Shown here: in pieces, positions 2,031 to 37,772 of the stretch
Position numbering within the stretch: position 1 is the first letter of the stretch
Layout: the number at the start of each line of letters is the position of its first letter
Assembly (NCBI GenBank): GCA_017965425.1
Contig: JAGCPY010000059.1
Span: forward strand, 1 to 38,049
DNA from: Bacteroidaceae bacterium
GTDB taxonomy: Bacteria; Bacteroidota; Bacteroidia; Bacteroidales; Bacteroidaceae
Length of the DNA: 38,049 nt
Direction of reading: 5' to 3'
Translations under genes and position numbers: made by a program
Notes under the pieces: model-generated
What the model saw: only the letters and a program-made list of their open reading frames with translations
The model's database searches: none
Told to the model about the DNA's origin: nothing

Positions 2031-2358
2031 GACCCAAAAAACAATGTATAGAAGAAACGATGAGCCTTGTCTTGACCTTCTGACGGGAACATAAACGCCT
2101 TAGACAAGAAACGGGCACTCGTTCCTGACCTTGGCGATTCATCTCAGAGGATCACTGCCCTTCCCGTTGCGCTGCGCTCGGTTCAATAATGGCTTCCGGC
2201 ACAACGCTTGAGAGCGTGTTGTGAAGGGGACGTTTAGAAGTCAGCCTTCCCAGCCTTTGAGTTTTCCTCAGACGGACGCAAGAAAAAAGGAAGAAGAGAA
2301 GGAACACACGGCATGGGCCTTTGCCGGCGGCGTGGGGGTGCGGAAGAGTCTGTCGACG
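2031..2358. other. Gene-free spacer; weak possible terminator of mlaF
   Basis: I find no convincing gene here. On the minus strand, downstream of the mlaF stop, a 5-bp stem (2309-2313 with 2322-2326) is followed ~20 bases later by a run of six T (2282-2287 on this strand are A). This could be a weak terminator for mlaEF, but the stem is short and the T-run distant. Confidence 0.3.
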
Positions 2359-3114: not shown

Positions 3115-3161
3115 GATGGGCGGGGTGTACGTGCTGTGCGGAAGGTCCATGCGTTCCGTGT

Positions 3162-3908: not shown

Positions 3909-3917
3909 AACTGGCCA

Positions 3918-3925
3918 CAAAAGTA
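3918..3925 (-). promoter_or_regulatory. Possible -7 box for mlaEF
   Basis: TACTTTTG on the minus strand matches the Bacteroidota -7 consensus TAnnTTTG exactly. No TTTG or TTG lies ~20 bases upstream, and the box is only ~10 bases from the mlaE ATG, so the call is tentative. Confidence 0.4.
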
Positions 3926-4000
3926 GTCAAAAAAGCCTAAAAGGAAGGTATCTGCGTGCAGTTTTTTTGAGGAAAATGGCGGAAAGTGACAAGAATTGTG

Positions 4001-4008
4001 TACTTTTG
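4001..4008 (+). promoter_or_regulatory. Possible -7 box for lptB
   Basis: TACTTTTG matches TAnnTTTG and lies 18 bases before the chosen lptB ATG at 4027. A good -33 element at the normal distance is not visible. The position supports the start at 4027 over in-frame codons further upstream, which would lie inside the promoter. Confidence 0.5.
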
Positions 4009-4026
4009 CGCACTCAAATCGACACT

Positions 4027-4881: not shown

Positions 4882-4895
4882 CTTGCCCTGGCATT

Positions 4896-4911
4896 TGGCA
4901 CGCCTTTTGCT
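4896..4911 (+). promoter_or_regulatory. Predicted sigma-54 (RpoN) promoter of tig-clpP-clpX
   Basis: TGGCACGCCTTTTGCT matches the sigma-54 consensus TGGCACG-N4-TTGC(A/T) at every fixed position. The -24 GG is at 4897-4898 and the -12 GC at 4909-4910, with the required 10 bases between. A start ~12 bases downstream (about 4922) would leave a ~35-base A-rich leader before the tig ATG at 4957. No TAnnTTTG box is present in this spacer. Whether the organism has RpoN cannot be seen here. Confidence 0.7.
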
Positions 4912-4956
4912 GGAACAGGAGACATATCAACAAATAAAAAAACATACAAACAAACA

Positions 4957-6312: not shown

Positions 6313-6977
6313 ATACCGACTTCCGCAAATACGCCACAGGCCATCTCGGTTTGAACGGGCAGGTGCTGGACGACTACGTCAGCCTCCAGAACCAGTACCT
6401 CAACCCTTATATTCTCGAAGAGCGTCAGCTGAATGTCACCCAGATGGATGTCTTCTCGCGTCTGATGATGGACCGCATCATCTTCCTTGGCACAGCCATC
6501 GACGATTACACAGCCAACACCCTTCAGGCACAGCTGCTCTATCTTGACAGCGTTGATCCGGGCAAGGACATCAACGTCTATCTGAACTCCCCCGGCGGAA
6601 GTGTCAGTGCCGGCCTGGGCATCTATGACACGATGCAGTTCATCACTTCCGACGTCGCCACCATCTGTACTGGCATGGCCGCCTCGATGGCCGCCGTCCT
6701 GCTCGTGGCCGGCAAGGAGGGCAAGCGTAGCGCGCTGCCTCACAGCCGCGTCATGATCCATCAGCCTCTTGGAGGCGTGCAAGGTCAAGCTAGTGACATC
6801 GAGATAGAAGCCCGCGAGATCCAGAAACTCAAGAAGGAACTCTATCAGATCATCGCCGACCATAGTCACACGCCTTACGACAAGGTGTGGGCCGACAGCG
6901 ACCGCAATTACTGGATGACCGCTGAGGAGGCTCGCGACTACGGCATGATTGACAACGTGCTCACCCGGAAGGCATAG
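6309..6977 (+). CDS. clpP: ATP-dependent Clp protease proteolytic subunit ClpP
   Basis: 222 residues starting at the ATG that overlaps the tig stop. The catalytic triad is visible: Ser126 in CTGMAASMAAVL, His151 in RVMIHQPLGG (25 residues later, as in E. coli ClpP) and probably Asp196 in WADSDRNYWM. DRIIFLGTAIDD and VYLNSPGGSVSAGLGIYDTM are conserved ClpP phrases forming the fold and oxyanion region. It assembles as a tetradecamer and degrades proteins unfolded by ClpX, whose gene follows after 53 bases. The ~25 residues before the conserved core may be a propeptide that is removed. Confidence 0.96.
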   Translation: MNTDFRKYATGHLGLNGQVLDDYVSLQNQYLNPYILEERQLNVTQMDVFSRLMMDRIIFLGTAIDDYTANTLQAQLLYLDSVDPGKDINVYLNSPGGSVSAGLGIYDTMQFITSDVATICTGMAASMAAVLLVAGKEGKRSALPHSRVMIHQPLGGVQGQASDIEIEAREIQKLKKELYQIIADHSHTPYDKVWADSDRNYWMTAEEARDYGMIDNVLTRKA

Positions 6978-23600: not shown

Positions 23601-26428
23601 GCGACTGGTTGACCAACAGCAACAACGTCAAGGGCTACCGCTCCAAGGCCGATGGCAAATACCATTTGGTCTTCATGGACTTGGATTCGGGCTTCGGTTC
23701 CACCAACATGATTGGCGAACTGTCAGGCAGACTCTATGATTCGCGTTATGACACGGGCAAGAACTTCCTCATTGACATCTTCCTGAATATGCTCAAATAT
23801 GCGCCCTTCCAAAAGAAGTTCATCGATGCCTTCTGTCTCGTCAACGGCAGCGTCTTTGAGTCTTCCCGTGTGACGTCTATCATCAACGCCATGCGCGACA
23901 GGGCATATACGGCCCTCGGTTTTGATGGTCAGGCTGGCACGCTTTCGAACAAAGCCAGCAGCCTCATCAGTGCTATCAACAGCAGTTCAAACCGCTCCAA
24001 CCGAATGAACAGTATCTACAACTACTTCGGCCTCAAGAGCTACAGCCGCTATACGGTCAACCTGAGCAGCAACGTCGAGGGTGCCGTCCTCATGCTGAAT
24101 GGTGAAGAGGTGCCGACAGGGAAGTTTGACGGACAGCTGTTTGCGCCTGCCGTGCTGACAGCCAAGGCACCAGCCGGCTATCGGTTCCTCGGGTGGCAGC
24201 AACAGGGTTCCGGTTCCGTCACCAACCTGCAGACCGTCTTCGACACTTCAACGTCCTGGAACTATTACGACCAAGGTTCTTTGGACGGCCAGAGCTGGAA
24301 GACGCGCAATTATCGAACGACCTCATGGAAGAGCGGCAATGGACCTCTCGGCTATGGCAACGTGGGCATCAACGGCAGTCAGGACTACGCGACGACTCTC
24401 AGCTATGGCAGTGACTCCAACAACAAGCGGCCCACCTACTACTTCCGCAAATCCTTCAACCTCAGCACGGCTCCGACCGACAACGATGTCTTCCAGCTGA
24501 CCTATTACGTCGATGATGGCTTCATCGCATACGTGAACGGCACCGAGATCGGCCGCTATCACATGCCGGACGGCGATGCGACGTACAGCACCTACTCGAC
24601 GACATACGAAGGAGCCACTGCAGCAACGGCCACCATCACGATTCCGAACAATCTTCTGGTTCGTGGGTCGAACGTGATAGCCGTGGAAGTGCATAACACG
24701 TCGGCCACTTCGTCCGATATTTACTGGGGTGCCATCCTTCAGCGGGGTACATTGAGCTCGGGTTCCTTTGTCTCGACCAGTGAGCAGCTCGACATCACCA
24801 CCTTGACCAGCAACACGGCCACCCTGATTGCGACCTACGAGAAGCTCTCAGATGACCAGCTGTTGGCTCACATCGCCACTCCTGTCAAGGTCAACGAGGT
24901 GAGTGCAGCAAACACCGTCTTCATCAACGATCAATTCAAGAAGAACGACTGGGTGGAACTCTATAACCCCACCGAGACCGACCTTAATGTCGCAGGCCTC
25001 TTTATCAGCGACGACATCGACGAACCGCTGAAGTATCAGATACCTACAGGTTCAGTCGCCAACACCGTCATCCCAGCCAATGGACATCTGGTTGTGTGGG
25101 CAGATCAGTTGGCACCCACCACGCAACTCCATAGCAGCTTCAAGCTGAGTAATACGAAAGGCCAGATGGTGCTCGTCACCTCTTCCGATGATTTTGCCAA
25201 CAACAATGCGGCTTTCTTTGCCAACCATCCTGCCCTGCGCGACTTTGCAGACGGACTACCCTACGATGCCCATCGTGGTGACCAGTCGGTCGGACGCTTC
25301 CCTGACGGTGGCAATGAGCTCTATCTCATGGAGAGACCGACCATCGAACGGACTAACTCGCTGCGTACCTACGACATTCACACAGGTACCGACACGGGCA
25401 TCATGGACACCACTTCGACGCTCACGCTTGCCTTGGCACAAGGATGGAACTGGGTTTCGCACCCGATGAAAGATGCCTATTCCGTGAACATCTTTAAGGA
25501 CAACGCCGACCGAATCCTCAGCCAGACCTTGGAGGCCTATTACAATAGTGTGAGCAAGACGATGGAAGGTCTGTTGAAGAACGTCGCCGCCAGTTCACTC
25601 TACAAATTCCAGATGAATGCCGCAAAGACCTACGAACTGGACGGCATCGTACCACGTAAGTTGGCTCCCACCTCGCTCAGGGCTGGATGGAACTGGCTGG
25701 GCTATCCGGCCACCGGCACACAAACCTTGGAGTCGGCTCTCAGGGGTTCAAAGGTGGAAGAGGGCGATATGCTGATGGGGCAGAATGGCTTCTCGGTTTA
25801 CAGCTCCACGGACGGATGGGTGGGTACGCTCAGCTCGTTTGTTCCGGGCATGGGATATATGTATAAGTCGGTCAGCACGAAGTCTGTACGCTTCAATTCC
25901 ACGACCTCTTCACTCAAGCTGCGCAGACATTTGTCGCCAGCGAAGGCTGCCGATGCCGAGTTCGACCGCCATGCCTATCCCAATGTCATGGGCGTCATTG
26001 CCCAACTGCAAATGGATGGCCATGCACTTGACTGTGCCTTCTTCCGCGTGAAGGCTTACGCCGACGGCGAATGTCGTGGCGTGGGTGAATACGTGGATGG
26101 ACGTGTCTTCATGACCCTTTACGGCTTGGGCGGCGAACGTCTGACCTTCAAGGCCTTCAGCGAAGACGGCGAAGTGTTCAACGTGCGTGAGACGCTGGAT
26201 TTCACGTCCGACGTATTGGGCACGCGCTCTGCTCCTATCCTCCTCAGCCTCAGTGCCGACAACACTCCCACCGCGATTGCTGCTACTGGCACGGCCACAT
26301 CGTCTGTGGCTGTCGGTTACTACAGCCTGAGCGGTCTCTTCCTCGGCAACACCGCCGACCATTTGCGTCCCGGCATTTATGTCGCCCGTCTCGCTGGCGG
26401 CCAGTGCACCAAAGTTCTCATCCGTTAA
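20618..26428 (+). CDS. Giant secreted CotH-kinase-family protein with Big2 and two lamin-tail domains
   Basis: 1936 residues from ATG 20618 (MMKMKKFLLLIAFCL, a signal peptide). Approximate order: an unassigned N-terminal part; a galactose-binding-like beta-sandwich (~245-405); a Big2 immunoglobulin-like domain (~410-492, SSSNPSVATVDENGKVTAL); lamin-tail domain 1 (~498-640); a chitobiase-like domain (~657-737, LRYTTDGSTPT); a CotH-like kinase region (~741-1140, with SFRLKGNK near 826 and FMDLDSGFG near 1020, the probable metal-binding Asp); another beta-sandwich; lamin-tail domain 2 (~1424-1520); a GWNWVS/GWNWLGYP module; and a C-terminus (LRPGIYVARLAGGQCTKVLI) like type IX secretion sorting tails. 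It probably sits on or leaves the cell surface. CotH proteins phosphorylate proteins in spore coats, but the target here is unknown. The beta-helix gene follows after 16 bases. Confidence 0.85.
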   Translation: MMKMKKFLLLIAFCLSCFSTTMAGSWVPPTLRIRTGLPPTNTELYFYNVSQEMFLTKGTTWGSHAALTESYEGALPYFIYEGDGYFRIYSPNAGGTGYLFNAETGVDIYTDYGVSSNPVECSYWDFILLSGGVFHIVISEQNNWYSQRPGYCIGWDPDNIDVDNNKNYLWTNIGLFSIEPSRASTCGLDWKYVLSSDARVYEARFQLYDMIQTAEQMGVSTDDVSDVYNYSTSVSEINATTKMLSQRIEDSLGTNADMTFAVTNPNFDNNASGWTVYMPGGQNNGFQGASYSGSATISNFVETWIPTPRTLGSGSVFQTLYGLPEGTYKLEVDAVAVNQNSNTPATGVVLFAESNETYEEAIATYDRSPQHFECMFYLSGSEVNIGVRTSSSTTANWMAFDNVRLTYYGTSDATSVTMNSRDLSMVLGETITLTATVNASNEWLNHVTWSSSNPSVATVDENGKVTALAKGSATIRATAFASECYGQVQVSVTTSDPSGLTINEIQVANIDQFIDPSFNYGGWVEFYNPKDVGISLSNFYVSDDPSNLRKFQLPIDAGAVPAKGFKCIWFDHHDQKGGTQFSSEAYKQVDFKLTYEGGVIYVSDSEGNLLLSQAYPAAVQRASYARRADGTGTWSYTGTPTPEASNVGSTFAAVQLEAPVVDRDATVFSSGFTVKVTIPSGATLRYTTDGSTPTLDNGMTSTTGSFQVSTGQSAIYRFRLFKSGYLPSAVVTRSYIYQDKAYYLPIVSVVTDQDNLYDNTIGAYTDGTNGTSGNNKNFSNKNRGWERPVNFEYLVPDDGGSFIMALNQECDFEVCGGWTRHYDPASSFRLKGNKYYLGQNFLPYPFFEEKPYIKNKTIVVRNGGNDNWARLQDAATHEIILKSGFHVDCQATQPAHIFINGQYRFMFNLREPNNKNHGYANYGIDTDEMDQFEINGSVGYEQKEGDDQVFRQWMTLAQQLANDPSNDDIYAQICNIVDIDEYCNYMAAEVYIGCGDWLTNSNNVKGYRSKADGKYHLVFMDLDSGFGSTNMIGELSGRLYDSRYDTGKNFLIDIFLNMLKYAPFQKKFIDAFCLVNGSVFESSRVTSIINAMRDRAYTALGFDGQAGTLSNKASSLISAINSSSNRSNRMNSIYNYFGLKSYSRYTVNLSSNVEGAVLMLNGEEVPTGKFDGQLFAPAVLTAKAPAGYRFLGWQQQGSGSVTNLQTVFDTSTSWNYYDQGSLDGQSWKTRNYRTTSWKSGNGPLGYGNVGINGSQDYATTLSYGSDSNNKRPTYYFRKSFNLSTAPTDNDVFQLTYYVDDGFIAYVNGTEIGRYHMPDGDATYSTYSTTYEGATAATATITIPNNLLVRGSNVIAVEVHNTSATSSDIYWGAILQRGTLSSGSFVSTSEQLDITTLTSNTATLIATYEKLSDDQLLAHIATPVKVNEVSAANTVFINDQFKKNDWVELYNPTETDLNVAGLFISDDIDEPLKYQIPTGSVANTVIPANGHLVVWADQLAPTTQLHSSFKLSNTKGQMVLVTSSDDFANNNAAFFANHPALRDFADGLPYDAHRGDQSVGRFPDGGNELYLMERPTIERTNSLRTYDIHTGTDTGIMDTTSTLTLALAQGWNWVSHPMKDAYSVNIFKDNADRILSQTLEAYYNSVSKTMEGLLKNVAASSLYKFQMNAAKTYELDGIVPRKLAPTSLRAGWNWLGYPATGTQTLESALRGSKVEEGDMLMGQNGFSVYSSTDGWVGTLSSFVPGMGYMYKSVSTKSVRFNSTTSSLKLRRHLSPAKAADAEFDRHAYPNVMGVIAQLQMDGHALDCAFFRVKAYADGECRGVGEYVDGRVFMTLYGLGGERLTFKAFSEDGEVFNVRETLDFTSDVLGTRSAPILLSLSADNTPTAIAATGTATSSVAVGYYSLSGLFLGNTADHLRPGIYVARLAGGQCTKVLIR

Positions 26429-26444
26429 TACCCACTCTGAAGAT

Positions 26445-28085
26445 ATGAAAAGGCTTCTGACACTTATCGCCTGCCTCTGCCCCCTGATGGGCTATGTGGC
26501 AATGGCCAACGAAGGCGACACCATCAAGGTAGAGTTCAAAGGCAACACCGCCACTGTCAAAATTCCTGCCACGGCATCCGTGACCTCGACCGTGGAAGGG
26601 GCTTACGTGACACTCACGTCCACCACCACCACCGAGGAATACGTCTATCGGCTTTCCGGAACGACGACGTCTGGTGGCTTCACCGTCAACGGTTCCTACA
26701 AACTCACGCTGGAACTTGCGGGCGTCAACATCACCAGCCAACAAGGGGCAGCCATCAACATACTTTGTGGCAAGCGGATTGCAGTCATCTTGGACGACGG
26801 AACCTATAACAGCTTGGTTGACTGCGCAGCAGGCTCACAGAAGGCGGCCTTCTACCTCAAGGGACATCCCGAATTTGAGGGTGGTGGGGTGCTCGACGTG
26901 ACGGGCAACACCAAACATGCCATCTCTGCCTCGGAGTACTTGCAGCTGAAGAAGACAACCGGCACCATCAACATCCTTTCATCTGCCAGCGACGGCATCC
27001 ACTGTGGAAAAGGTCAGGTGAATAGCGAACACCGCTACTTTGAAATCAACGGGGGTGTCGTGAATATTCGGAACGTGAAGGGCGACTGCATCGACTCCGA
27101 CGACTATGGAATCATGAACATCAACGGCGGCATCATCAACGCCAATGTCGTGGAGGACGGAGCCGTTGGACTTAAATGTGACAGCATCCTCTACATGACC
27201 GGTGGCGAAGTGAATATCAACGTGACGGGCTCTGACAGTGAAGGCATTCGTGCCTGCTACGACGCTCAGTTCATGGGTGGTGCTGTGAACATCAATGTGG
27301 CTGGCGACGGCTCCAAAGGCATCAAGGGCAAGAACAAGACTGACGGGTTGGTAAAGAACGGTGGAAACCTGCATTTTAGCGGCACCGACTTCGTCTTCAA
27401 CGTCCACGGCAACGACCTGAAAGCTGCTGACGGAACGGTGGACACCAACTGTCGTGCCGTCAGCTCCGATGCCACCATCACGCGCACCAAGGGGCAACTG
27501 GATATTTATGCCTACGGAAACATAGAAAGTGCCTATAACGCCGATGTGCAGGAACTCGCTCAGGGAGGAACTATCAACTTATACCGTGCGCCTTGGAGCT
27601 TCTACTATGCCGACTACCAGAATGATATGACTGCCTACGTGGCCTTGAAGATTGACAACCAGACGGTCAGCGTCAGTGATTATGCCATCGGGGCTTTCAT
27701 GGGTCAACAATGTGTCGGCGTCGCCATCGGAAACTATCTCCGCATCTACAGCAACGCCACGACGGCAGAAAACGTGTCTTTCCGTGCCTACAATCTTTCG
27801 ACGGGAAATCTTCACAACCTACGCCCCTCTAAGACGGTCGCTTTCTCAGCCAACGCCGCTGTCAGCACGGCTGCTGCGCCCATCACACTCACGGGTTATA
27901 CAACCCTCAGAGGCGATGTCAATAACGACAAGAACATCAACATTGCCGATGTGACGGCGTTGGTGAACATCATCCTTAACAAATCGTCAGACACTTACCT
28001 TAGCGCAGATGTCAATGAGGATGGCACCGTCAACATCTCTGATGTCACCTCGCTGGTGAATATCATCCTGAAGCGCAATCTCTAA
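26445..28085 (+). CDS. Exported beta-helical carbohydrate-binding protein (Cthe_2159 type) with dockerin-like C-terminus
   Basis: 546 residues from ATG 26445, with a signal peptide ending about GYVAMANEG. Residues ~40-370 are short repeated strands with G-x-I-N turns (GIMNINGGIINANVVEDGAV, TGGEVNINVTGSDSEGIRA), the right-handed beta-helix of the Cthe_2159 family (PF14262), described for cellulose- and pectin-binding proteins. At ~396-483 comes an 'IGAFMGQQCVGVA...VSFRAYNLSTG' module related to one in the upstream protein. The last ~58 residues hold two calcium-loop repeats, DVNNDKNINIADVTALVNII and DVNEDGTVNISDVTSLVNII, as in type I dockerins. It is likely secreted and binds an acidic or neutral glycan. 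No cohesin is visible in the window. Confidence 0.85.
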   Translation: MKRLLTLIACLCPLMGYVAMANEGDTIKVEFKGNTATVKIPATASVTSTVEGAYVTLTSTTTTEEYVYRLSGTTTSGGFTVNGSYKLTLELAGVNITSQQGAAINILCGKRIAVILDDGTYNSLVDCAAGSQKAAFYLKGHPEFEGGGVLDVTGNTKHAISASEYLQLKKTTGTINILSSASDGIHCGKGQVNSEHRYFEINGGVVNIRNVKGDCIDSDDYGIMNINGGIINANVVEDGAVGLKCDSILYMTGGEVNINVTGSDSEGIRACYDAQFMGGAVNINVAGDGSKGIKGKNKTDGLVKNGGNLHFSGTDFVFNVHGNDLKAADGTVDTNCRAVSSDATITRTKGQLDIYAYGNIESAYNADVQELAQGGTINLYRAPWSFYYADYQNDMTAYVALKIDNQTVSVSDYAIGAFMGQQCVGVAIGNYLRIYSNATTAENVSFRAYNLSTGNLHNLRPSKTVAFSANAAVSTAAAPITLTGYTTLRGDVNNDKNINIADVTALVNIILNKSSDTYLSADVNEDGTVNISDVTSLVNIILKRNL

Positions 28086-28105: not shown

Positions 28106-30064
28106 ATGAACAAATCTTTGAATCCCTTTGAGCACATTCTGAAAGTGTGCTGTTTGTTCTGTGCGCTCTGTAGTGCCTCTTTCACCACTGTCATCGCACA
28201 ACCCTACACTATTTATCCCGTTCCGCAGCAACAGCTCCCCTTGCCTGACGCTGCCCGTTTCGTTGCTCCCGTTTGCATCGTTGCTGAGAGCGGCATCGAC
28301 GCGGCCACCGTGGCTCGAGCCAAACAGGTGCTGAGCGACCACGGCGTGCAGTTCACCACTGCAGACCGTCCGCAGAAGGCCGTCACGAACCTGCTGTTAG
28401 GCATTAACGCCTCACACGGCATTGCCGACAAGGAAGTCGCACGTCTGAAGCTCAGCCGCCACGTCTTCAACCTGCCGAAATACGACCGCCACCTCCTCCA
28501 CCTCAACGCTGACAAGCAGGGGCGGGCGCAGGTGCTCATTGTCGGTGAACACACCGACGCCGCCTTTTGCGGTTTGGCATCTTTGGAGCAGATGCTCGAC
28601 GCCGGCACGAACGATATGCCTTGTGTGACCCTCTATGACTATGCTGACATCCGTGACCGAGGTGTCATCGAAGGCTACTATGGCGTGCCCTACAGCGCTG
28701 AGGTGACGAAAGACCTCTTTCGCTTCATGGCACGATATAAGATGAACACCTATATGTATGGGGCCAAGTCGGATCCCTACCACTCTCAGCGGTGGACAGA
28801 TCCCTATCCCACCAGCATCACGCCTGAACAACTGCGTATTGGCTATCTGACACAAGACATGCTCCGAGACATCACAGCTGTCGGACATGCTACCAAGGTG
28901 AACTTCATCTGGGCCATCCATCCGGGTACTGCCTTCACCGATGCCAACAACAACGAGGTGCTCTCTCAGATTATGCATAAGTTCGGCGATATGCACGACC
29001 TCGGTGTCCGACAGTTCGGTGTCTTCGTCGATGATGTGGGTGTTCCTAACGACGATGCCACCCTGCGCCTCGGTGCCGACCGTCTGACAGCGCTGCAACG
29101 CCAAATTGACGAACGCTGGAACCGGAAAGGAGCTGTGCCGACAGACACCGTCAAGCCCTTGCACTATGTGCCTCAGCTCTATGCTTTCTCCTGGGTCAAT
29201 GCTGAACAGGCGCGCCGCTTCTTCGGTTCGCTCAGCAGTGTACCCGAGAAGGTGCGCATTTACATCACCGGTGCCGCTGTCTGGTCGGTGCCTAACAGTG
29301 CCGACCTTGCCACCGTCCGCGAATGGCTTGGACACGACACCAGCTGGTGGTGGAACTACCCTTGCAACGACAATGACGTGACGAAGCTCTTCACCATGGA
29401 TACATACGCCAACTTCCACGATGAACAGCACATCACGACGCTTGCTCGTTTGGAAACGTCATTGAAAGGAACGCCAACCCTTATCATCAATCCCATGCAA
29501 CAGGGAGAAATCTCGAAGATTGCCCTTTTCAGTGTCGCTGACTACGCATGGAACAACCGCGCCTTCGACAATCACCAGAGTTGGGAAGCTGCCCTGCCCG
29601 CGGTCGTCGGCAAGAAGTATGCAACAGCCCTTCGCAAACTGGCACCCTATCTGCGCTATTTCGATGCCGATGCCCTCAGCTATCTGGTGCGCAACTACCG
29701 TCGGTCCGTGGAGGCTGGCAAGCCCAGTCCTTGGGCGCTTGTTGGTGAGCTGCGCCGTGTCATCCAAGCCTGTGAGACACTGGAAACCATGAAGAACGCC
29801 TCCCGCCACGAAGACGTACTCTTCTATGAAGACCTGCGTCCCTGGTTGCTCAAGTTGAAGGCAATGGCCACCGAGACCATTGCTCGCCTGGAAGGCAAGA
29901 AGCCAACAGCGGTGGATCTCAATGGGAATCCCGACTTCCAGTTCCCCATCCTTACGGGTTTGGGCGACGGCATCGACCTCAGCGTGAAGACCGCAGAACC
30001 TGCCGCAGAGATGTTGCAACCCCTGTTGGAGTGGCTGCGCGAACAAGGCACAGAACAACCCTAG
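28106..30064 (+). CDS. GH84 beta-N-acetylglucosaminidase (O-GlcNAcase/hyaluronidase-like)
   Basis: 652 residues. A signal peptide ends near TTVIAQPY. An N-terminal GH20b-like alpha/beta domain (~33-165) is followed by the catalytic barrel: RGVIEGYYGVPYS from 185 and the double aspartate Asp309-Asp310 in FGVFVDDV, the acid/base pair of GH84 substrate-assisted hydrolysis. YMYGAKSDPYH and WWWNYPCND are further family signatures. A helical C-terminal region completes it. It removes terminal beta-GlcNAc from host glycoproteins or O-GlcNAc peptides, and the Bacteroides homologue is well studied. The start is 20 bases after the beta-helix gene, so it is in the same operon. It lacks the dockerin-like tail and the sorting tail of its neighbours, suggesting a periplasmic location. 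Confidence 0.93.
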   Translation: MNKSLNPFEHILKVCCLFCALCSASFTTVIAQPYTIYPVPQQQLPLPDAARFVAPVCIVAESGIDAATVARAKQVLSDHGVQFTTADRPQKAVTNLLLGINASHGIADKEVARLKLSRHVFNLPKYDRHLLHLNADKQGRAQVLIVGEHTDAAFCGLASLEQMLDAGTNDMPCVTLYDYADIRDRGVIEGYYGVPYSAEVTKDLFRFMARYKMNTYMYGAKSDPYHSQRWTDPYPTSITPEQLRIGYLTQDMLRDITAVGHATKVNFIWAIHPGTAFTDANNNEVLSQIMHKFGDMHDLGVRQFGVFVDDVGVPNDDATLRLGADRLTALQRQIDERWNRKGAVPTDTVKPLHYVPQLYAFSWVNAEQARRFFGSLSSVPEKVRIYITGAAVWSVPNSADLATVREWLGHDTSWWWNYPCNDNDVTKLFTMDTYANFHDEQHITTLARLETSLKGTPTLIINPMQQGEISKIALFSVADYAWNNRAFDNHQSWEAALPAVVGKKYATALRKLAPYLRYFDADALSYLVRNYRRSVEAGKPSPWALVGELRRVIQACETLETMKNASRHEDVLFYEDLRPWLLKLKAMATETIARLEGKKPTAVDLNGNPDFQFPILTGLGDGIDLSVKTAEPAAEMLQPLLEWLREQGTEQP

Positions 30065-30092
30065 CTGTGAAGGGCGTAGTGCTAAATGAATT

Positions 30093-30183
30093 TATTTTTT
30101 CAAGAAAAGATTTGTGGGGAAATAGCTTTTTTCACCTTTTCTTTCTATTTTTTGAGAAAAAATTTGTGAGGGAATGAATTTTT
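30093..30183 (+). repeat. Duplicated ~38-base promoter segment
   Basis: TATTTTTT-C-A-AGAAAAGATTTGTGGGG (from 30093) is repeated as TATTTTTT-G-AGAAAAAATTTGTGAGG (from 30146), about 52 bases apart, with few differences. Each copy contains an ATTTGTG core. The second copy supplies the -33 TTTG of the promoter below. The first has a poorer -7 partner near 30133. Confidence 0.8.
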
Positions 30184-30194
30184 ATGTTCCTTTG
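30163..30194 (+). promoter_or_regulatory. Promoter of the SPFH/coiled-coil gene row
   Basis: TTTG at 30163-30166 and TTCCTTTG at 30187-30194 (one mismatch to TAnnTTTG) are 20 bases apart. The ATG at 30223 follows. The duplicated segment could make a tandem promoter or paired operator. Confidence 0.65.
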
Positions 30195-30222
30195 TACATT
30201 CTAACCTATAAAAAGATGCATC

Positions 30223-31521
30223 ATGGCCTTAATTGACTGCGCTAAATGGAAACCTCAAGGCGATGAATTTGTTTTTGCATATCGCTATCCTCAAACCAAT
30301 CTGAGCACCTATACTCAGCTGATTGTTTACGAATCTCAGGAAGCCCTTCTGTTCAGCAAAGGACAACTGATGGGCAAGTTTGGACCTGGCAAGCACACGC
30401 TGGACACAGAGAACCTGCCGTTGCTAAGGAGCCTGTTTGACATACCGTTTGGCGGCAAGAATCCGTTCACGGCAGAGGTGTGGATTGTCAACAAACTTTA
30501 TCCAGCCAACCTGAGCTGGTCGGTCAAGAACATGGCTTTGCACGACGTGGACTATCAGACCATGCTTCCACTGCGGGCCATGGGACAGTATGGCATTCAG
30601 GTCTCAGACTCGGAGAAGTTCCTCATCAAGATGGTGGGCACGAAGGACGAATTCACGGAAGCCGACATGCTCTCGCAGGCTTATGGTGAATTTGCGTCGA
30701 AGGCGAAGAGCGCCATCATTCAGTTCATGACCGCTCAAAAGGTGGGGTTCAAGAGCGTTTCGGCCTATCTCGATAATCTGTCGGGCTACATCAAGACTGC
30801 CTTGCTGCCTTTCTGGCAGGAGTATGGCCTCAGCATGACCAAATTCTACATCACGGAAATCTCTATTGACACCAGCACGGAAGAGGGTCGCAAGATATCG
30901 GAAGCCCTTGCCAGCCAGGCATCGATGTCGATTACGGGTCACTCATGGCAGCAGGAACAGATGTTCGGGATGGCCAACAATGCTGTGGACCAGATCGGGA
31001 ACGCATCTGGCAACGGCGGTCTGCTGGCCGGCCTGATGGCCATCAACATGATGGGCGGTGGCGGCATGGGTGGCACCATCGCGGGCGGCATGATGCAACC
31101 CCATACCAACCAACCCACCTTCGGCGGACCTCAAGCAGGCGGTTTCCGGCCAGGTGACATGCCTCAGAGGGGGGCCGCACCGGCAGCCGCAAGGGAAGTT
31201 TATTGTGCAAACTGCTCGAAGAAGCACCTGACGACGGAACGGTTCTGTCCGCATTGCGGTGCTGAATACCACCCTTGTCCGAACTGTGGGGCTGATAATC
31301 TGCTGACGGCACGCCGGTGTGTCAGTTGCGGGACGCCCTTGCAGGCGAATGCGGGTGCGCGGTGCCAGTCGTGCGGTGCTCCGATAACTCCTGGGTCTGT
31401 CTTCTGTTCGCAGTGTGGTGCCCAGCAGAACACCGTCTCCGATGGTTACCAGTGTACACGCTGTGGGGCATTGGTGCCTCCGACGTCGCGGTTCTGCCCC
31501 AAATGCGGCCAAAAGGTCTGA
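30223..31521 (+). CDS. SPFH-domain protein with four C-terminal zinc ribbons (YdjI-like)
   Basis: 432 residues. Residues ~20-230 form an SPFH/band-7-like domain of the 'virion core protein' YdjI type (LIVYESQEALLFSKGQLMGK, then GPGKHTLDTENLPLLRSLF). A Gly/Met-rich flexible linker (~262-300) precedes eight CxxC motifs between residues 328 and ~428 (CANC, CPHC, CPNC, CVSC, CQSC, CSQC, CTRC, CPKC), that is, four zinc ribbons. There is no signal peptide or N-terminal transmembrane segment, so it is cytoplasmic or peripheral. In Bacillus, YdjI works with a PspA-type protein at the membrane; that is family knowledge. Here it heads a row of membrane and coiled-coil proteins. The zinc ribbons probably bind partner proteins; this is inference. 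Confidence 0.87.
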   Translation: MALIDCAKWKPQGDEFVFAYRYPQTNLSTYTQLIVYESQEALLFSKGQLMGKFGPGKHTLDTENLPLLRSLFDIPFGGKNPFTAEVWIVNKLYPANLSWSVKNMALHDVDYQTMLPLRAMGQYGIQVSDSEKFLIKMVGTKDEFTEADMLSQAYGEFASKAKSAIIQFMTAQKVGFKSVSAYLDNLSGYIKTALLPFWQEYGLSMTKFYITEISIDTSTEEGRKISEALASQASMSITGHSWQQEQMFGMANNAVDQIGNASGNGGLLAGLMAINMMGGGGMGGTIAGGMMQPHTNQPTFGGPQAGGFRPGDMPQRGAAPAAAREVYCANCSKKHLTTERFCPHCGAEYHPCPNCGADNLLTARRCVSCGTPLQANAGARCQSCGAPITPGSVFCSQCGAQQNTVSDGYQCTRCGALVPPTSRFCPKCGQKV

Positions 31522-31742
31522 ATGACTTACGGAGCCTTATCTCGCAGGTCGTCATCTGTGGCTCTACAAGGGTGCACGGTCCAACGGTGAATGAAACGGT
31601 GTGCTGCCATCATTCGTATCATTCTTCAAGTGTGAAGCGTCCTTCGGCCGAGCGAGTGTAATGCGTGGTCTCAGACAAATTGCGTAATTCGTGGTGGAAA
31701 TACATCCGAAACGTCGATTATTTACTAAACAGTTATAACAAT
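31522..31742 (+). other. 221-base spacer with AATTCGTG-type repeats
   Basis: No gene is seen. Near the end lie GTGTAATGCGTGG (about 31658) and GTAATTCGTGGTGG (31684), degenerate copies of one element. A matching inverted copy lies after the next gene. Confidence 0.5.
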
Positions 31743-32476
31743 ATGAAAGCAAGCCGATTCTTTTTGTTTCTGACAATCGTGATGGGCTATGGGCTCATCA
31801 TCGGAGGTTTCTGGCTTTTGGGAGGAGAACTCGAAGAGAAGGTCAGGATTCTTGACGCAGTTGTCTCATGTGTGGTTCTCACGCAGCTGTTCATGCTGCT
31901 GATTTTCCCCATGGTCAACCTGAAGAAGAAAGCCCATCAAGAAGTGGGCATGATGGGTATTCACTATTTCTCGCTGCTCATGTGCTGTCTGGCCTCCATC
32001 TGCTACATGGCGCTGGGCATAATCTATGAGATTCCCTTCCTTTTCCAGCTGTTGGGACAGTTGCTTCTCTTGTTCCTCCTGCTGATGGGGCGTACCTCGA
32101 CGCTCTTTTCGGGAGAGAAAGTGGTACAAGTATATGAGCGTGAGAGAGCGACGATGAAAGGGAAAGACGCCCTGAAGAAGTTCATGGCCGACCTGATGAG
32201 CGACGTCTCCGGCGCAGGTCTGGCCCCTGCACAGGCCGAAAGGCTGTCTGCCCTTCAGGAGTCAGTGCGCTATCTGACACCTTCGCTGGAGTCCGAGGCT
32301 CTGGAACTGGACGAGAAAATCCGGCAGACGGCGGCTGACGTGAGGACAATGCTGAACGACATCTCGTCCAACTCGGACCGCATAGAGGCCAGCATCGGCC
32401 GTCTGGAACAGCTGATGGCTCGCCGCAAGAATTATTAGCTGAATGAAGTTCCGGAAGTTTTTCCACTACGAATTAC
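31684..32476. repeat. Inverted repeats flanking the four-helix membrane gene
   Basis: GTAATTCGTGGTGGAAA (31684-31700) and the reverse complement of 32460-32476 (GTAATTCGTAGTGGAAA) agree at 16 of 17 positions. They bracket the gene at 31743-32438. A further half-copy, CACGAATTATACGA, lies at about 32491. They may be dispersed intergenic elements rather than ends of a mobile unit. Confidence 0.7.
31743..32438 (+). CDS. Four-helix membrane protein with coiled-coil tail, unknown function
   Basis: 231 residues from ATG 31743 (MKASRFFLFLTIVMG). The frame is open earlier, but those residues are charged, polar and within the repeat-rich spacer. Four hydrophobic segments are evident: about 6-26, 38-58, 71-93 and 97-116. 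The C-terminal half (~120-231) is charged, helical and likely a coiled coil (DEKIRQTAADVRTMLNDI, then SIGRLEQLMARRKN), probably cytoplasmic. I do not recognise a family. It sits between the SPFH gene and the large coiled-coil gene, with 221-base spacers on both sides carrying inverted repeats, unlike the tight spacing of the later genes. It may anchor the other products to the membrane; that is inference. Confidence 0.7.
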   Translation: MKASRFFLFLTIVMGYGLIIGGFWLLGGELEEKVRILDAVVSCVVLTQLFMLLIFPMVNLKKKAHQEVGMMGIHYFSLLMCCLASICYMALGIIYEIPFLFQLLGQLLLLFLLLMGRTSTLFSGEKVVQVYERERATMKGKDALKKFMADLMSDVSGAGLAPAQAERLSALQESVRYLTPSLESEALELDEKIRQTAADVRTMLNDISSNSDRIEASIGRLEQLMARRKNY

Positions 32477-32659
32477 ATGTTTTTTGAAATCACGAATTAT
32501 ACGATTTTTTAAAGCAGCACGCTTCGCAGGTGCTGAATGTCATTTCGTGGCGAACATTCGAAGCCTGTGTAGCACTTCGCGCGCGTAATCCTTAGTGGAA
32601 AATCTTTCGAATCTTCAATGATTTGAAATTTTCATTATTCACTTTACATATTAATATCT
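32439..32659 (+). other. 221-base spacer, no gene
   Basis: It contains the inverted AATTCGTG-type copies at 32460-32504, T-runs at 32480 and 32503 that could help end the upstream message, and a small stem GAATGT/ACATTC around 32536-32561. I see no full promoter consensus before the gene at 32660. Confidence 0.45.
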
Positions 32660-34684
32660 ATGAGTACAACAGGAAAGATTTTCAAGGAATCGAGCAACAT
32701 CTATCAAGATCAGGCTCGGTTGTTGTTCAACTACTATGAACAGGCCGCTGAAAGGATTGTACGTCAAGAGGAGGCTATCGAGCAAGACATTGAAACGCTG
32801 GAGGAGGATCGTGCTGGTGTCGAACTGAAGAAAAGCGACACGTGGAAATGGTTCCTCACCATCGTGCTGTTCTGGATGTACTGGGTGCGCAACAAGGAGT
32901 ATGACCGCCAGATTGCTGCCATCAACGCAAAGATTGACAGCAAGAAGGAGGAGCACCAGCGCATTTTCCGTGGCTACAAGGTAACGAAGATGGGCGTGGC
33001 CTACGTTCCCGTAGCCCAACAGGTAGCCTACGAAGACAAATGCTTTGTTGTGGACTATGCAGGCAATGTGCCCACGTCACGTGTGAGTCTGCAAATGTCG
33101 CGGCAAAACGACTTACTGGTCGAGACGATGACGCGAATGGAGCAGCTGACAACGGAAGCGCCCATCGTGGAAACGTCGGACGAAGTGGAGAGTGTGGACA
33201 CCAATGACTACTCGCTCTCCATTCAGGAAATCAACCAGAACGACTACGTGGGCAAGCTGGATCGCTCACTGCGTACGATTTCCTTCTGCATGAACGACAC
33301 GGAAGTGAAGTCGGTGGACCTCCCCTTGGTGGCCGACAAGAGTGACTATCTGGGCTTCCTCAACGAGTTTACCACGGCAGATGCCGGCACACATCCTGTG
33401 GTCGATGTGTTCGACAACAAGAAATATGACGGCGAGATTGATGCGTTCTGCCAGCTGAACAAGCTGAAAGACTCGCTGTCGAGCGACACCGAGCAATTTG
33501 AGGACGTGCTGAAGCACCTGATGCACACGATGGCCATGTCGGTGCAGACGATTTCGGCCATGAAGCTGGCTTCCACGAATCAGATGGTGAGCCGTTCCAA
33601 TGCACTGCTCTATAAGATCCTGAAAGCACCCTATAACCACTACTCTCCCCTACTCGAAGCCGAGGAAATCCGCCGTATTCGCAACGAGCGTTTCGACTAT
33701 GCCGATTCCATCCAGGGCTACGAGCCATTCCAGCTTCGCGAGAGTTCGCGGGTTCGCTATAACCTGTTCGCCGACGAGTGGACAGCAGAGGATAACACCC
33801 ACGCCAGCGTTCCCTTCGGTGTCCACCAGATCTACGAGGAAATTGTGGCGCCGATGGTGCAGCGCCTGATGATGGAAAACCGTGTAGAGAGAATACGCAT
33901 TTACGGGCAGATTCATGACCAGAAGATCAGCTACCTGAACAAATGGCATCAGGACGTAGATGCCTTCTATCGTTCGAACCACGCTGAGAGTGCCGACATC
34001 ATCAACAACATGCAGCAAACTCTGAGCGAATACGTCGAGGCGTATAACACACTGGCACAGTTACAGAAGACGCTGGACAGTATGGAGGAAGAAGGTGCCA
34101 CGCTGGACAACACCGTCGTGAAGAAACAGGACAACAGCCAGGAAGCGCTGGCCGCCTTCGAGCTGCAGGCCAAGGAGTTCAAGCAGGCACAAGAAGATTT
34201 CAGCGACTACATGGACCGTCTGCAAGAAGACATCGCCCTGAAGGCTGAGAAGTTCGGCCATGTCGAATTCTATGATGCCCGCTTGCAGGATGGCTACTCC
34301 AACTCGATGGCTGTCGCCGCCAGTGAAGTGCAGAATCTGGACGAACGCCGCAAGCCGCTGGCCACCACCAATCCGTTGCTGGCCAAGGAGTCACTTCTCC
34401 TGCCCGAACCCAGTGTCGAGGACATCACCTACGAACATCTCTCCATCAACCTGCCGTCAATCGCCATCAACGCGCTGGATGCCGTCAGCCGCATCGCCGT
34501 CGAAAGCCCGGAAAAGGCCGACGAGCCGAGTGCCGAAACTCCCCAACCGACGGCCCCGGAAGCCGACGAGGATATGCCCGCAGATGACATCCCGGAGGCT
34601 GTCGCAGACGAAACTCAGGAAGCTCTCGAAGAGGAAAACGTGAGGACTCCAGAGGATGAGGAGGAAAATACTAATAACCAATAA
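32660..34684 (+). CDS. Large coiled-coil protein with one hydrophobic segment and acidic tail, unknown function
   Basis: 674 residues. A helical N-terminus (~15-58, heptad-like, rich in E/R) leads to a short hydrophobic segment TWKWFLTIVLFWMYWV (61-76), another charged helix, and then a small globular part (KVTKMGVAYVPVAQQVAYED). Long helical regions follow (~270-330 and ~470-560). The last ~75 residues are acidic and low in complexity (PEADEDMPADDIPEAVADET). There is no signal peptide, so the protein is probably cytoplasmic and membrane-associated through the 61-76 segment. I cannot assign a family. The stop lies 11 bases before the next gene, and the four genes from here to 37613 are tightly packed, which argues for one complex. 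Confidence 0.75.
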   Translation: MSTTGKIFKESSNIYQDQARLLFNYYEQAAERIVRQEEAIEQDIETLEEDRAGVELKKSDTWKWFLTIVLFWMYWVRNKEYDRQIAAINAKIDSKKEEHQRIFRGYKVTKMGVAYVPVAQQVAYEDKCFVVDYAGNVPTSRVSLQMSRQNDLLVETMTRMEQLTTEAPIVETSDEVESVDTNDYSLSIQEINQNDYVGKLDRSLRTISFCMNDTEVKSVDLPLVADKSDYLGFLNEFTTADAGTHPVVDVFDNKKYDGEIDAFCQLNKLKDSLSSDTEQFEDVLKHLMHTMAMSVQTISAMKLASTNQMVSRSNALLYKILKAPYNHYSPLLEAEEIRRIRNERFDYADSIQGYEPFQLRESSRVRYNLFADEWTAEDNTHASVPFGVHQIYEEIVAPMVQRLMMENRVERIRIYGQIHDQKISYLNKWHQDVDAFYRSNHAESADIINNMQQTLSEYVEAYNTLAQLQKTLDSMEEEGATLDNTVVKKQDNSQEALAAFELQAKEFKQAQEDFSDYMDRLQEDIALKAEKFGHVEFYDARLQDGYSNSMAVAASEVQNLDERRKPLATTNPLLAKESLLLPEPSVEDITYEHLSINLPSIAINALDAVSRIAVESPEKADEPSAETPQPTAPEADEDMPADDIPEAVADETQEALEEENVRTPEDEEENTNNQ

Positions 34685-34695
34685 AGCGTGCAACT

Positions 34696-35604
34696 ATGGC
34701 TACATTGATTCCATGTTCGGTCGATACGACCCCGATGGCCGAGGAGATAAAAAGCGTCTCTAAACATGTGATGGGAACTACTGCAGCTGTCGTGGCGATG
34801 CAGACCGCTGTGATTGCCGCCGAGAATAGTGGCGCTAACAAGGTCTGCTCCAATGTGAACAGAGGTTTTTTCACATTGATGCGCTCTCAGATTTCCCAGA
34901 AGATTGCCAACAAACAAAGCCGCGTGGAGGCACTTGTCATGCAACTGGCCCAACAGAAACGCCGCTTGCTGGCCATCAAAACCAATATGGAACGTGAATA
35001 CGGACGGATAGCAGAGCGCTATCTGAAAATCTTCACCACCGTGAATAAAGAACTGGAAACCAGAATCCGACAAGTGGATCAGCCCGTGTTCGAGTTGGTC
35101 AATAAACACATGGCCACCTCTTCCAACCGAATGAACGCCCTGACGGCCTGGATTCCCACCTCTCAGAAAGAAGGCATCACCAGCAGTCAGCAGATTTTGG
35201 TGTCCAGCATGAAGCACAATGCACAGACGGCACTGGAACAGACGACAGGCTTTCTGGAGCAGATAGGCCAGCAGAGAGAGTTGACCCGCCAGATTCTCAT
35301 CTCCAACGCGAGTGGGAACGAAGACCGGGTCTGCCATCTGCCCGTCCTCGTCTTTGAAACCGTGAACGACGAGAACGGCATGAGCCGTATGGAAGTCAGA
35401 ACGTCAGAAACCTTCAATCCCAACGGAAGCGAAAGCATCAACAATGCCCTCAGATCTTCGGATATGCTGCCCTGGAGCCAAGGCCAATGCCCCTCTCAGG
35501 TCGCAGACGAGTTCTCTCTCTTGATGGAACAGTCCAGTATGAAACCAAGGGTGAAGGCGATGGTTCAGAAGATGTTCTCTTCGTCAGAGTTTGAAACGAT
35601 GTAA
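34696..35604 (+). CDS. Coiled-coil protein, paralogue A of the GFF-VDQPVF family, unknown function
   Basis: 302 residues, no signal peptide. The helical core at 57-135 starts GFFTLMRSQIS and ends RIRQVDQPVFELV. Aligned without gaps to residues 94-172 of the next gene's product, I count about 33 identical positions of 79. The strongest are GFF, QQ, LL, ME, Y-R, RY-K-F, N-EL, RI and VDQPVF. Both proteins also end alike: RVKAMVQKMF here, RVRAMINKMF there. The N-terminus (AAVVAMQTAVIAAENSGANK) is alanine-rich helix. This looks like an ancient duplication with both copies kept, as in heteromeric filaments or paired subunits. No family name known to me fits; it is PspA-like only in being long helical. 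Confidence 0.75.
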   Translation: MATLIPCSVDTTPMAEEIKSVSKHVMGTTAAVVAMQTAVIAAENSGANKVCSNVNRGFFTLMRSQISQKIANKQSRVEALVMQLAQQKRRLLAIKTNMEREYGRIAERYLKIFTTVNKELETRIRQVDQPVFELVNKHMATSSNRMNALTAWIPTSQKEGITSSQQILVSSMKHNAQTALEQTTGFLEQIGQQRELTRQILISNASGNEDRVCHLPVLVFETVNDENGMSRMEVRTSETFNPNGSESINNALRSSDMLPWSQGQCPSQVADEFSLLMEQSSMKPRVKAMVQKMFSSSEFETM

Positions 35605-35625
35605 AACGATTAACAGATTGACGTT

Positions 35626-36627
35626 ATGAGTTATACGAGAAGATTCACCAGAACCATCAGCATACCCGTCAGCGTGACGGTTGACTACCCCGCTTCGGAG
35701 CATGGCGGTAGCAAGACCGTACACGAAACCGTCACGGAAGACGTGGAAGTGGAAATCGAAGTGGACACCCAGCGGTTCGACTCGAGTGTCTCTTCCTGCA
35801 ACGACCACGTGAACGGACTGACGGCCAGCGTCGGGGCCATGAACACGGCTCAGTGTGTGGCCATCGGTCAGAATGCAGACAAGGTGTCGAAAACCATCAT
35901 CGACGGCTTCTTCCATACCGTTCGGACAGACCTGTCCACTCAACGGGCAGAGCTGGAACAGAAGATCAATGCCCGCTTGCTCTTGCTCAGGCAGCAGGCG
36001 GCTTCTCTGCTCGACAAACGCAAGAAGATGGAAGAAGACTATGCGCGCACGACGGCCAGATACCAAAAATTGTTCTCCGACTTGAATAACGAACTGTCCG
36101 TGCGCATCCATGAAGTGGATCAGCCTGTCTTCAGCCTGGTCAAGGACGTCGATTCACAGAGCGACAGAATGCTGCATACCGACATGGTGCAGACAGCGTT
36201 GGTGACCAGTAAGGAAAGCACCCTTCTTCAGTCTCAGCTGAATGTGGCACGTGTGAAGCATGATGCCCTCCTCGCCATGAATCGCATTCAGGGCTTCCTC
36301 AACACGAAAGCGGCCTCTGAACGTACATTACGGGAAGTGTGTCTGGAGGGCGTGGGCGAACAGAACTATCTGGCTCCAGTGTGCTATCTGGAAACCGAGT
36401 CCGAAGGACGGAAGGTAGAGCAGAAATGTGTGGCTCCAGACATTGTTGCGACAGAAAACGATGTGCTCTGCCAACGCCTGTCAGAAGTGGACTTCGACGG
36501 AGATACCGACACCGAGCGGGAGATGTTGCAGTCCTATTTCCAGGCAGAAGTGGAGCAGAAAGTCCACGGAAACGATGCCCATTCTTTACGAGTGAGGGCG
36601 ATGATTAACAAAATGTTTAATGATTAA
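35626..36627 (+). CDS. Coiled-coil protein, paralogue B of the GFF-VDQPVF family, unknown function
   Basis: 333 residues. It differs from its paralogue by a beta-rich N-terminal domain of ~55 residues (FTRTISIPVSVTVDYPASEH, then DVEVEIEVDTQRFDSSV) before the shared helical core (GFF at 94-96, VDQPVF at 164-169; the spacing of 70 residues is identical in both). A second mixed region (~230-320) and the common end RVRAMINKMF follow. There is no signal peptide or membrane segment. The gaps to the neighbouring genes are 21 and 14 bases, so coexpression is near certain. The beta domain suggests a distinct contact, possibly with the beta-helix protein encoded next; this is inference. Confidence 0.75.
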   Translation: MSYTRRFTRTISIPVSVTVDYPASEHGGSKTVHETVTEDVEVEIEVDTQRFDSSVSSCNDHVNGLTASVGAMNTAQCVAIGQNADKVSKTIIDGFFHTVRTDLSTQRAELEQKINARLLLLRQQAASLLDKRKKMEEDYARTTARYQKLFSDLNNELSVRIHEVDQPVFSLVKDVDSQSDRMLHTDMVQTALVTSKESTLLQSQLNVARVKHDALLAMNRIQGFLNTKAASERTLREVCLEGVGEQNYLAPVCYLETESEGRKVEQKCVAPDIVATENDVLCQRLSEVDFDGDTDTEREMLQSYFQAEVEQKVHGNDAHSLRVRAMINKMFND

Positions 36628-36641
36628 AAACAGAGATAACT

Positions 36642-37613
36642 ATGAGTAATCTAAAAGAAGTGCATATCACCGATGCAAACCTCAGGCTGAGTGATAATAT
36701 CGTGAAGGGCGGCATCCTGCCCAATAAGATAGCAGAGCTTTCCAGAACGGTCAACGTGGTGGGCGAGACGGTGGTCGAAGGGCCGCTCTATGCGAGTCGC
36801 ATCACGATAGAGGCTGCACCTTTTGAAGTGACGGGAGCCGTGTTCTCTCAGCACGAACTATATATCAACAGCGACGTCGAAGGAAACGTGGTGTTCAGGA
36901 AAGCGGTCGGTTCTGCGTCATCGGTCGTTTCCAGGGCTCTGAAGTGTCAGACGACCTTCTGTTCAGACATCAATGCCAAGTCGGTGATGCTGTGCAACGC
37001 CTTTGTCTCAGGCAGCATCTACGCCGACGAAGTGAACCTGGAAAACTGTGTCGTGATCGGAGGCGTCTTCGCCACACAATCCCTTTCAGTCAAAGATTGC
37101 ATCGTGGGAACCTTCATCTCTCCGTTCGTGGAGCTTGATGGGAATGTGAACCTGCTGCTGCCATCGGTCTTCAGCGTCGAGCGTGTCAACTACACGCCGA
37201 CCACCCGCCTCTATTCGTTGGCACTTGCAGACTTGGGCTCGCTCTATCGCCATCAGGAAGAAGCGCCAGAGAGTGGCCGGATAGAAATCAATCTGGCTGC
37301 CGATGACCTGCGTACGACTCTCACCGACGGCAATCAGCAACGCACGCTGCACAGCTATAGCGTAGTGGGAAAGGTGTTGGCTGCCGACCTCATCGACACC
37401 GATAAGTTCCAGAACCATTTCTTGCTGACAGCTGCTGCCCTGGGTCCCCAACTGCTCAAAACCTACGAGCTGGGAACCGACAAAGACGGAAAACCTGCCG
37501 TGCTAACGCTCGAACGCATCCGTGCCTTCTTCTTTGAATTGTTGCAAGGCTCTATCCAGGTGAAGCCACTCGATGGCTCCTTCAACATAGAGCAGTTTGC
37601 AAGAACCATGTAA
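36642..37613 (+). CDS. Bactofilin-like beta-helix protein, unknown function
   Basis: 323 residues. Residues ~30-190 are a run of short strands separated by small turns, each ~15-20 residues: VVEGPLYASRITIEA, FEVTGAVFSQHELYINSDVE, GNVVFRKAVG, then FVSGSIYADEVNLENCVVIG and GVFATQSLSVKD. This is the look of bactofilins and related polymer-forming beta-helices. The remaining ~130 residues are alpha/beta and may be a cap (LADLGSLYRHQEEAPESGRI). No signal peptide is present, so a cytoplasmic polymer or scaffold is likely. Bactofilins self-assemble without nucleotide; whether this one does is unproved. It is the last gene before a terminator at 37717. Confidence 0.7.
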   Translation: MSNLKEVHITDANLRLSDNIVKGGILPNKIAELSRTVNVVGETVVEGPLYASRITIEAAPFEVTGAVFSQHELYINSDVEGNVVFRKAVGSASSVVSRALKCQTTFCSDINAKSVMLCNAFVSGSIYADEVNLENCVVIGGVFATQSLSVKDCIVGTFISPFVELDGNVNLLLPSVFSVERVNYTPTTRLYSLALADLGSLYRHQEEAPESGRIEINLAADDLRTTLTDGNQQRTLHSYSVVGKVLAADLIDTDKFQNHFLLTAAALGPQLLKTYELGTDKDGKPAVLTLERIRAFFFELLQGSIQVKPLDGSFNIEQFARTM

Positions 37614-37716
37614 CGTTCGTTAGTGAGCATCCGACACGCTCCAAGACAAGTCCTCTGACAGCATGTTTTTCTGAAGTGTCTGACGTTGCTTGTGAGTGTG
37701 AAGAAACAGTCATAAG

Positions 37717-37772
37717 AGTGGAAGACTCTCGCTCTCTCATGAAAAGAGGGAAGGAGCCTTCCACTTTTTTTG
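37717..37772 (+). terminator. Terminator of the SPFH/coiled-coil row
   Basis: AGTGGAAG (37717-37724) pairs with CTTCCACT (37758-37765), and the stem continues inward with mismatches. A run of seven T (37765-37771) follows at once. It lies between convergent genes, but the T-run serves only the plus strand. Confidence 0.85.

Follow-up and report, generated by a model that had tools for sequence, protein, structure and literature searches.

SPFH proteins occur in all kingdoms, and what many of the bacterial members organise, and with which partners, is the wider question to which the locus described here belongs. The nearest described parallel is found in Bacillus subtilis. Its SPFH protein YdjI, predicted to be soluble and bearing a zinc-finger motif close to the C-terminus, depends on two membrane proteins, YdjG and YdjH, and PspA in turn forms foci at the membrane only when YdjI is present (PMC8581546). 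The window analysed here, one whole contig of 38,049 bases (JAGCPY010000059.1, from a Bacteroidaceae bacterium), contains a block of six plus-strand open reading frames (ORFs), A to F, at positions 30223–37613. Like pspA-ydjGHI of B. subtilis, the block encodes a zinc-finger SPFH protein beside membrane proteins (PMC8581546, PMC9239133); unlike that operon, the block lacks PspA, its SPFH protein (A) has four zinc ribbons, and four of its products (C–F) have no described equivalent there. The Meth_adaptin ESCRT loci of archaea are alike in combining an SPFH protein bearing a coiled coil and a zinc ribbon with a multi-gene membrane locus (PMC10936438), whereas A–F contain no Vps4, ESCRT-III, or adaptin match at E ≤ 1. 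The SPFH membrane scaffold is known as a kind, and most of the partners in this block are not; no paper describing the six-gene set was found in the literature searched, which left most subscription papers outside.

A scan of a GTDB genome collection with C returned 126 relatives, the best 80 of which were kept and scored with profiles for A–F; the profiles were built from the window plus nine loci whose genomes are among the 80. Loci were considered complete if the contig extended at least 2.3 kb before and at least 3.3 kb after C (58 of 80). The order A-B-C-D-E-F was kept on one strand in 56 of these 58 loci (in L058 with C split), the two exceptions (L042 and L097) having C-D-E-F without A and B, and none of the 22 loci cut by contig ends had a gene out of order. 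Because the order is kept in this way, A–F is one conserved unit, beyond chance, and the six collinear genes proposed in an initial annotation made from the sequence alone were all confirmed as ORFs. We found neither scattered homologues nor a clear match to a described system. Median spacers between successive genes, measured by longest ORF in complete loci, were 18, 21, 20, 8, and 11 bp, and among 710 flank ORFs few families recurred across loci, the commonest in nine. Pairwise identities of the six proteins correlated at 0.82–0.94 in 49 complete sets, a range that has no housekeeping control beside it. The slowest evolving proteins in these sets were F, A, and C (mean pairwise identities of 0.64, 0.61, and 0.61, respectively), and the fastest was B (0.32), whose mean dN among six close copies was 0.45 as compared with 0.13–0.30 for the others; dN/dS ratios were unusable, as synonymous sites were saturated.

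Protein A (30223–31521, 432 amino acids) belongs to the SPFH family PF13421, matching Pfam Band_7_1 over residues 20–220 at E 4e-34 (118.5 bits vs. a cut-off of 24), and four further stretches toward its C-terminus match Zn_Ribbon_1. All 16 ribbon cysteines are invariant among nine aligned copies, and eight CxxC motifs are present in 71 of 73 copies, with six in the remaining two, in agreement with the earlier description of an SPFH protein with four zinc ribbons. The best matches of A to solved structures fall in the ribbons, as do its matches to PHROGs. At a strict threshold the window copy has no hydrophobic segment.

The ORF of protein B was listed at 31665–32438, and since aligned homologues begin at B residue 27, its true start is most likely 31743, the start common to the homologues, which gives a protein of 231 amino acids (31743–32438) with four hydrophobic segments and a C-terminal tail. 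Hydropathy placed the segments at 3, 34, 68, and 91, and on a permissive scale four were found in 46 of 69 copies, five in 21, and three in two, consistent with the four-helix membrane protein first proposed. B, C, D, and E have no Pfam or NCBIfam match reaching a curated cut-off, in line with the four products for which the initial annotation could name no family. Likewise, none of A–F matched an enzyme family up to a cut-off in either database, which upholds the earlier statement that no enzyme motif is visible. Against PADLOC-DB 2.0.0, A and C–F had no match at E ≤ 1, and B alone gave matches at E 0.02 and 0.06.

Protein C (32660–34684, 674 amino acids) has heptad-like stretches and, at its N-terminus, a hydrophobic stretch (weak in this copy); it ends in an acidic tail that varies among copies. 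Its best Pfam match was at E 0.37 and its best NCBIfam match at E 0.0023, far below the cut-off; against solved structures the best match was at E 0.49. Five of 31 windows were heptad-like at p ≤ 0.01 in a simple test without correction, and 66 of 80 copies have their best hydrophobic 19-mer among residues 1–110. In a Pfam scan of ten C copies, one matched LEM (PF03020, E 4.6e-6) and one zinc ribbons. By eye, the C-terminal tails of four copies (L011, L013, L017, and L019) carry YTEEEL..FDRE.AI-type repeats, and that of L014 carries zinc ribbons.

Proteins D (34696–35604, 302 amino acids) and E (35626–36627, 333 amino acids, with an extra N-terminal segment) are paralogues, as the initial annotation had stated, with an hhalign probability of 100% (E 1.7e-41, 292 columns). 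An AlphaFold2 model of D comprises a very long helix of 141 residues (12–152), a second helix (155–200), and a small C-terminal alpha/beta domain, with a mean pLDDT of 77.5 and a pTM of 0.30; by the same simple test as for C, three of 13 windows of D are heptad-like. Neither protein had a match to solved structures at E ≤ 5. The commonest Pfam match among D copies was DUF2046 (7 of 71 at E ≤ 0.01), and in NCBIfam D matched NifL (E 1.7e-4) and TIGR02619 (E 2e-4), both below cut-off. Sub-threshold Pfam matches of E were to Apolipoprotein in the window copy (E 0.00037) and to DisA-linker in six of nine copies (best E 8.5e-5). We read the matches to Apolipoprotein, NifL, and DisA-linker as noise from helical sequence.

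The last gene encodes F (36642–37613, 323 amino acids), a bactofilin-like protein. Ten out of ten F copies matched the bactofilin family PF04519 at E ≤ 0.1 (best E 1.1e-4), and the hit of F in the PDB was bactofilin A (E 1.1). In the alignment, the strongly conserved C-terminal half falls outside the PF04519-matched region, and F differs from bactofilins in this additional half.

Outside these six genes, the window's layout departs from that of most loci in its first two spacers, A-B (31522–31742) and B-C (32439–32659). Because each is 221 bp long (taking B to start at 31743), as compared with the respective medians of 18 and 21 bp, internal promoters are possible, and the single promoter region first proposed for the block is only putative. 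The upstream intergenic region (30065–30222, between A and the gene ending at 30064) is a presumed promoter in which no sigma-70-type match was listed; such matches are near chance (seven found vs. 4.9 ± 2.2 in shuffles). Aligned to one another, the two spacers show some likeness close to the 3′ end, of unassessed significance. Elsewhere in the genome the A-B spacer has two partial matches, both short, and the B-C spacer has none; the candidate explanation of a repeated element was rejected, as neither spacer has a complete second copy. Behind F, a motif scan found a plus-strand terminator-like hairpin with a T run (37746–37762); this hairpin is the candidate for the proposed terminator, but matches of this kind are common (13 found vs. 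7.8 ± 2.7 in shuffles). The upstream neighbours are a NAGidase (PF07555) with a GH20b domain (28106–30064) and a Cthe_2159 carbohydrate-binding protein with a Dockerin_1 match (26379–28085). Downstream, a partial minus-strand gene at the contig end (37799–38047, 82 residues) had no Pfam match at E ≤ 1e-5 and contains an EGNGR stretch, which we take to be reminiscent of Fic proteins.

Family PF13421 extends beyond carriers of the block. It also matched the B. subtilis control genome, where the matching protein is presumably YdjI, and it occurs in simpler loci of other Bacteroidales. Twelve extra regions were examined, namely eleven with weaker SPFH matches (L126–L136, one from the carrier G072) and one holding a fragment from G082 (L137). 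The eleven simple loci share the SPFH family with the block (A-profile E 1.5e-59 to 1.5e-32); an SPFH ORF of 368–400 amino acids was present in ten, one of which also matches the ribbon in part, and a zinc-ribbon-like protein was seen nearby in eight by eye. No match to B–F at E ≤ 1 was found in the ORFs chosen from the twelve regions, a choice that missed the SPFH gene of L131 and the F fragment of L137. The A profile gave E values below 1e-220 in five carriers among 101 relatives and nowhere else among them, the next best being 1.5e-59. PspA was above cut-off in five of seven non-carrier genomes of other genera with a simple SPFH locus (G070, G076, G079, G095, and G096), below cut-off in G075, and G086 was not among the PspA matches listed. 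In carriers, PspA (PF04012) was found in none of ten genomes, eight of them at least 90% complete. Because the background in the order is 33 of 237 genomes above cut-off, chance alone would yield zero of ten in roughly a fifth of cases (0.86^10), and the absence of PspA from carriers was dropped as support.

The block is rare, and its carriers are scattered among gut and environmental bacteria. C was found in 5 of the 101 relatives and in 8 of the 393 genomes examined from the order, the window's own included; F was found in the same eight, and G082 additionally has a 41-residue piece of it where a contig ends. In a sample of the phylum (n = 247), C and F occurred in the window's genome alone, and D in that genome plus one weak 57-residue stretch (E 7.6e-4). 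The titles of the 80 kept loci were Bacteroidota or Ignavibacteriae, save one metagenome-assembled genome (MAG) titled Clostridiales (L084), and a complete block was present in the named isolates Barnesiella sp. An55 (L044), Labilibaculum filiforme (L092), and Capnocytophaga sputigena (L081). In a typed sample with kinship labels, C copies from other families were 56–61% identical to the window copy and those of two congeners 55 and 57%; because other families are as similar as congeners, the sequences suggest that the block was transferred between lineages. C copies at 73–84% identity (L021–L028) carried mixed titles, including Alistipes, Paludibacteraceae, Prevotella, Bacteroidaceae, and Bacteroidales, mostly unverified MAG titles. 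No C was found in 50,697 phage or 72,556 plasmid records, none was confirmed in viral contigs (44 pattern matches), and cargo of a mobile element was accordingly rejected. Two of the 122 nearest flank proteins matched Phage_integrase (among the 25 of 138 Pfam families listed), the first being an intron-maturase-type protein. Transposase-like genes were seen by eye near L017. In MAG RGIG5009, two copies of the block with equal gene lengths lie on two contigs (L069 and L070), reflecting either duplication or an assembly artefact.

The genes that follow F vary between loci, a feature that the initial annotation did not foresee. We defined a gene behind F as a same-strand ORF of at least 110 amino acids starting between −20 and +60 bp from F, and 21 of the 67 loci with a complete F have one. 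Five encode Pfam-confirmed GYF_2 proteins (L021, L023, L024, L025, and L027), some of which also contain FGE-sulfatase, SH3_3, or YARHG domains; a further GYF_2 protein lies at +184 in L022. Another five encode zinc-ribbon proteins, recognised by motif, with Pfam run for L029 (L029, L030, L031, L040, and L060). All five GYF_2 proteins have predicted membrane segments, as does the zinc-ribbon protein of L040; the short zinc-ribbon proteins of the other four loci have none. An RNase_T-type exonuclease directly follows F in three loci (L058, 14837–15757; L068, 14825–15745; L074, 9380–10297), and the genes of the remaining eight are dissimilar. The window itself has no gene behind F, with the terminator-like hairpin in its place. 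In L027 (5620–8771), two tandem GYF_2 genes that differ in their C-terminal domains lie in a 585-bp repeat (96.4% identity) that includes the last 123 bases of F, and in L040 (7140–8803) a 111-bp copy of the 3′ end of F (94.6%) follows the zinc-ribbon gene. Because of these copied ends, few as they are (2 of the 80 loci scanned), the sequences suggest insertion by recombination at the 3′ end of F. In L014, three zinc-ribbon-like ORFs, recognised by eye and with one other ORF between them, precede A (2037–6624) and are possibly another client array.

Our preferred interpretation, to which we assign a probability of roughly 50%, is that A–F assemble into a single complex at the inner surface of the cytoplasmic membrane, an SPFH-organised platform without PspA. 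In such a complex, B and perhaps C would anchor the assembly in the membrane, and A would oligomerise as an SPFH ring or cage that B recruits, much as YdjI needs YdjG and YdjH, with A and B filling the YdjI and YdjG/H roles. C, D, and E would form long helical rods or fibres on the A platform, F would add a polymer, and the zinc ribbons of A would act as docking sites. In some lineages, a variable client in the membrane, the product of the gene just behind F, would be brought in by the ribbons or by F; its head (GYF_2 or zinc ribbon) would face the cytosol and its FGE, SH3, or YARHG domain the periplasm. The task of the complex is likely membrane organisation or protection in cells without PspA; the role in envelope stress first proposed is an inference. 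That products of the block would polymerise is predicted from the sub-threshold bactofilin match of F, the modest-quality helix model of D, and the heptad-like stretches in C and D.

Several observations weigh against such a platform. The PF04519 match of the window's F (residues 61–151) has an E of 0.004 and scores 17.8 bits, under the family cut-off of 27.9, so the bactofilin-like label given by the initial annotation keeps its likeness but falls short of family membership. D is modelled as a rod whose overall shape is uncertain, as its pTM indicates, and E, which had been called a coiled-coil protein along with C and D, has heptad-like windows in 0 of 14 (same uncorrected test), leaving that description to the other two. 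The window's C, described earlier as having a hydrophobic segment, has none on the strict or the permissive scale (falling just under the permissive threshold). A may bind the membrane by itself, as a classical flotillin does through its own anchor, since 72 of 73 copies have at least one hydrophobic segment on the permissive scale (in the window copy a 19-mer at residue 261), although none is seen at the strict threshold. The possibility that D or C is PspA in disguise was rejected, with hhalign probabilities under 1% against a small, three-sequence PspA alignment; the parallel with PspA drawn earlier is thus one of role alone. Ten of the 21 genes behind F are of the GYF_2 or zinc-ribbon types and most loci have no visible client, the identity correlation is uncontrolled, and a basic housekeeping role is hard to square with the rarity of the block (8 of 393).

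The patchy distribution is in keeping with the main rival explanation. In that explanation, which we consider unlikely, the block is a conflict system directed at phages or competing bacteria, its scaffold sensing membrane insult and the variable gene behind F supplying the specific sensor or effector. C identities such as transfer would give, the fast evolution of B, the variable genes and copied 3′ ends behind F, and the weak PHROGs match of D to ‘Hdf-like antirestriction’ (E 0.009) all agree with it, as do single flank proteins matching Csx1 (best E 2.1e-71) and PDC-S04 (best E 5.3e-163) and two matching MkoA. However, the core has no PADLOC match apart from the weak ones of B and no effector enzyme, and C is absent from the phage and plasmid records searched. 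Although 43 PADLOC models matched among the 122 nearest flank proteins, each had at most three members among the 25 listed, some of these matches are suspected housekeeping proteins, and the comparison has no control set; within that limit, a defence island was rejected, as PADLOC enrichment was not striking.

A bactofilin-like F, a long-helix D, a pair of paralogues, and the lack of any enzyme above cut-off would also suit a cytoskeletal or organelle-like system in which C–F assemble inside the cell into a filament or a compartment that shapes the cell or sorts proteins, with A merely tethering it. We regard this as improbable, given that shape genes are usually lineage-wide, whereas the block is rare and patchy and encodes no peptidoglycan enzyme. 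A chance run of unrelated genes, which the window's long A-B and B-C spacers would fit, is hardly credible in view of the order shared by 56 of the 58 complete loci and the few flank families common to them. The PspA-free platform remains our preferred interpretation, and a bolder form of it can be offered tentatively: a new membrane machine in which an SPFH–zinc-ribbon hub, undescribed families (B, C, and D/E), and a bactofilin-like polymer would make up a scaffold that can be transferred and that presents interchangeable transmembrane sensors or effectors, encoded in a recombining slot behind F.

The locus joins an SPFH protein to five constant partners, of which four have no family match above any cut-off, and keeps them together across Bacteroidota. 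Present in named isolates too, the block is a defined unit for studying the recruitment of polymers and membrane clients to an SPFH platform that lacks PspA; should the position behind F prove to be a client slot, scaffolds of this kind would be modular.

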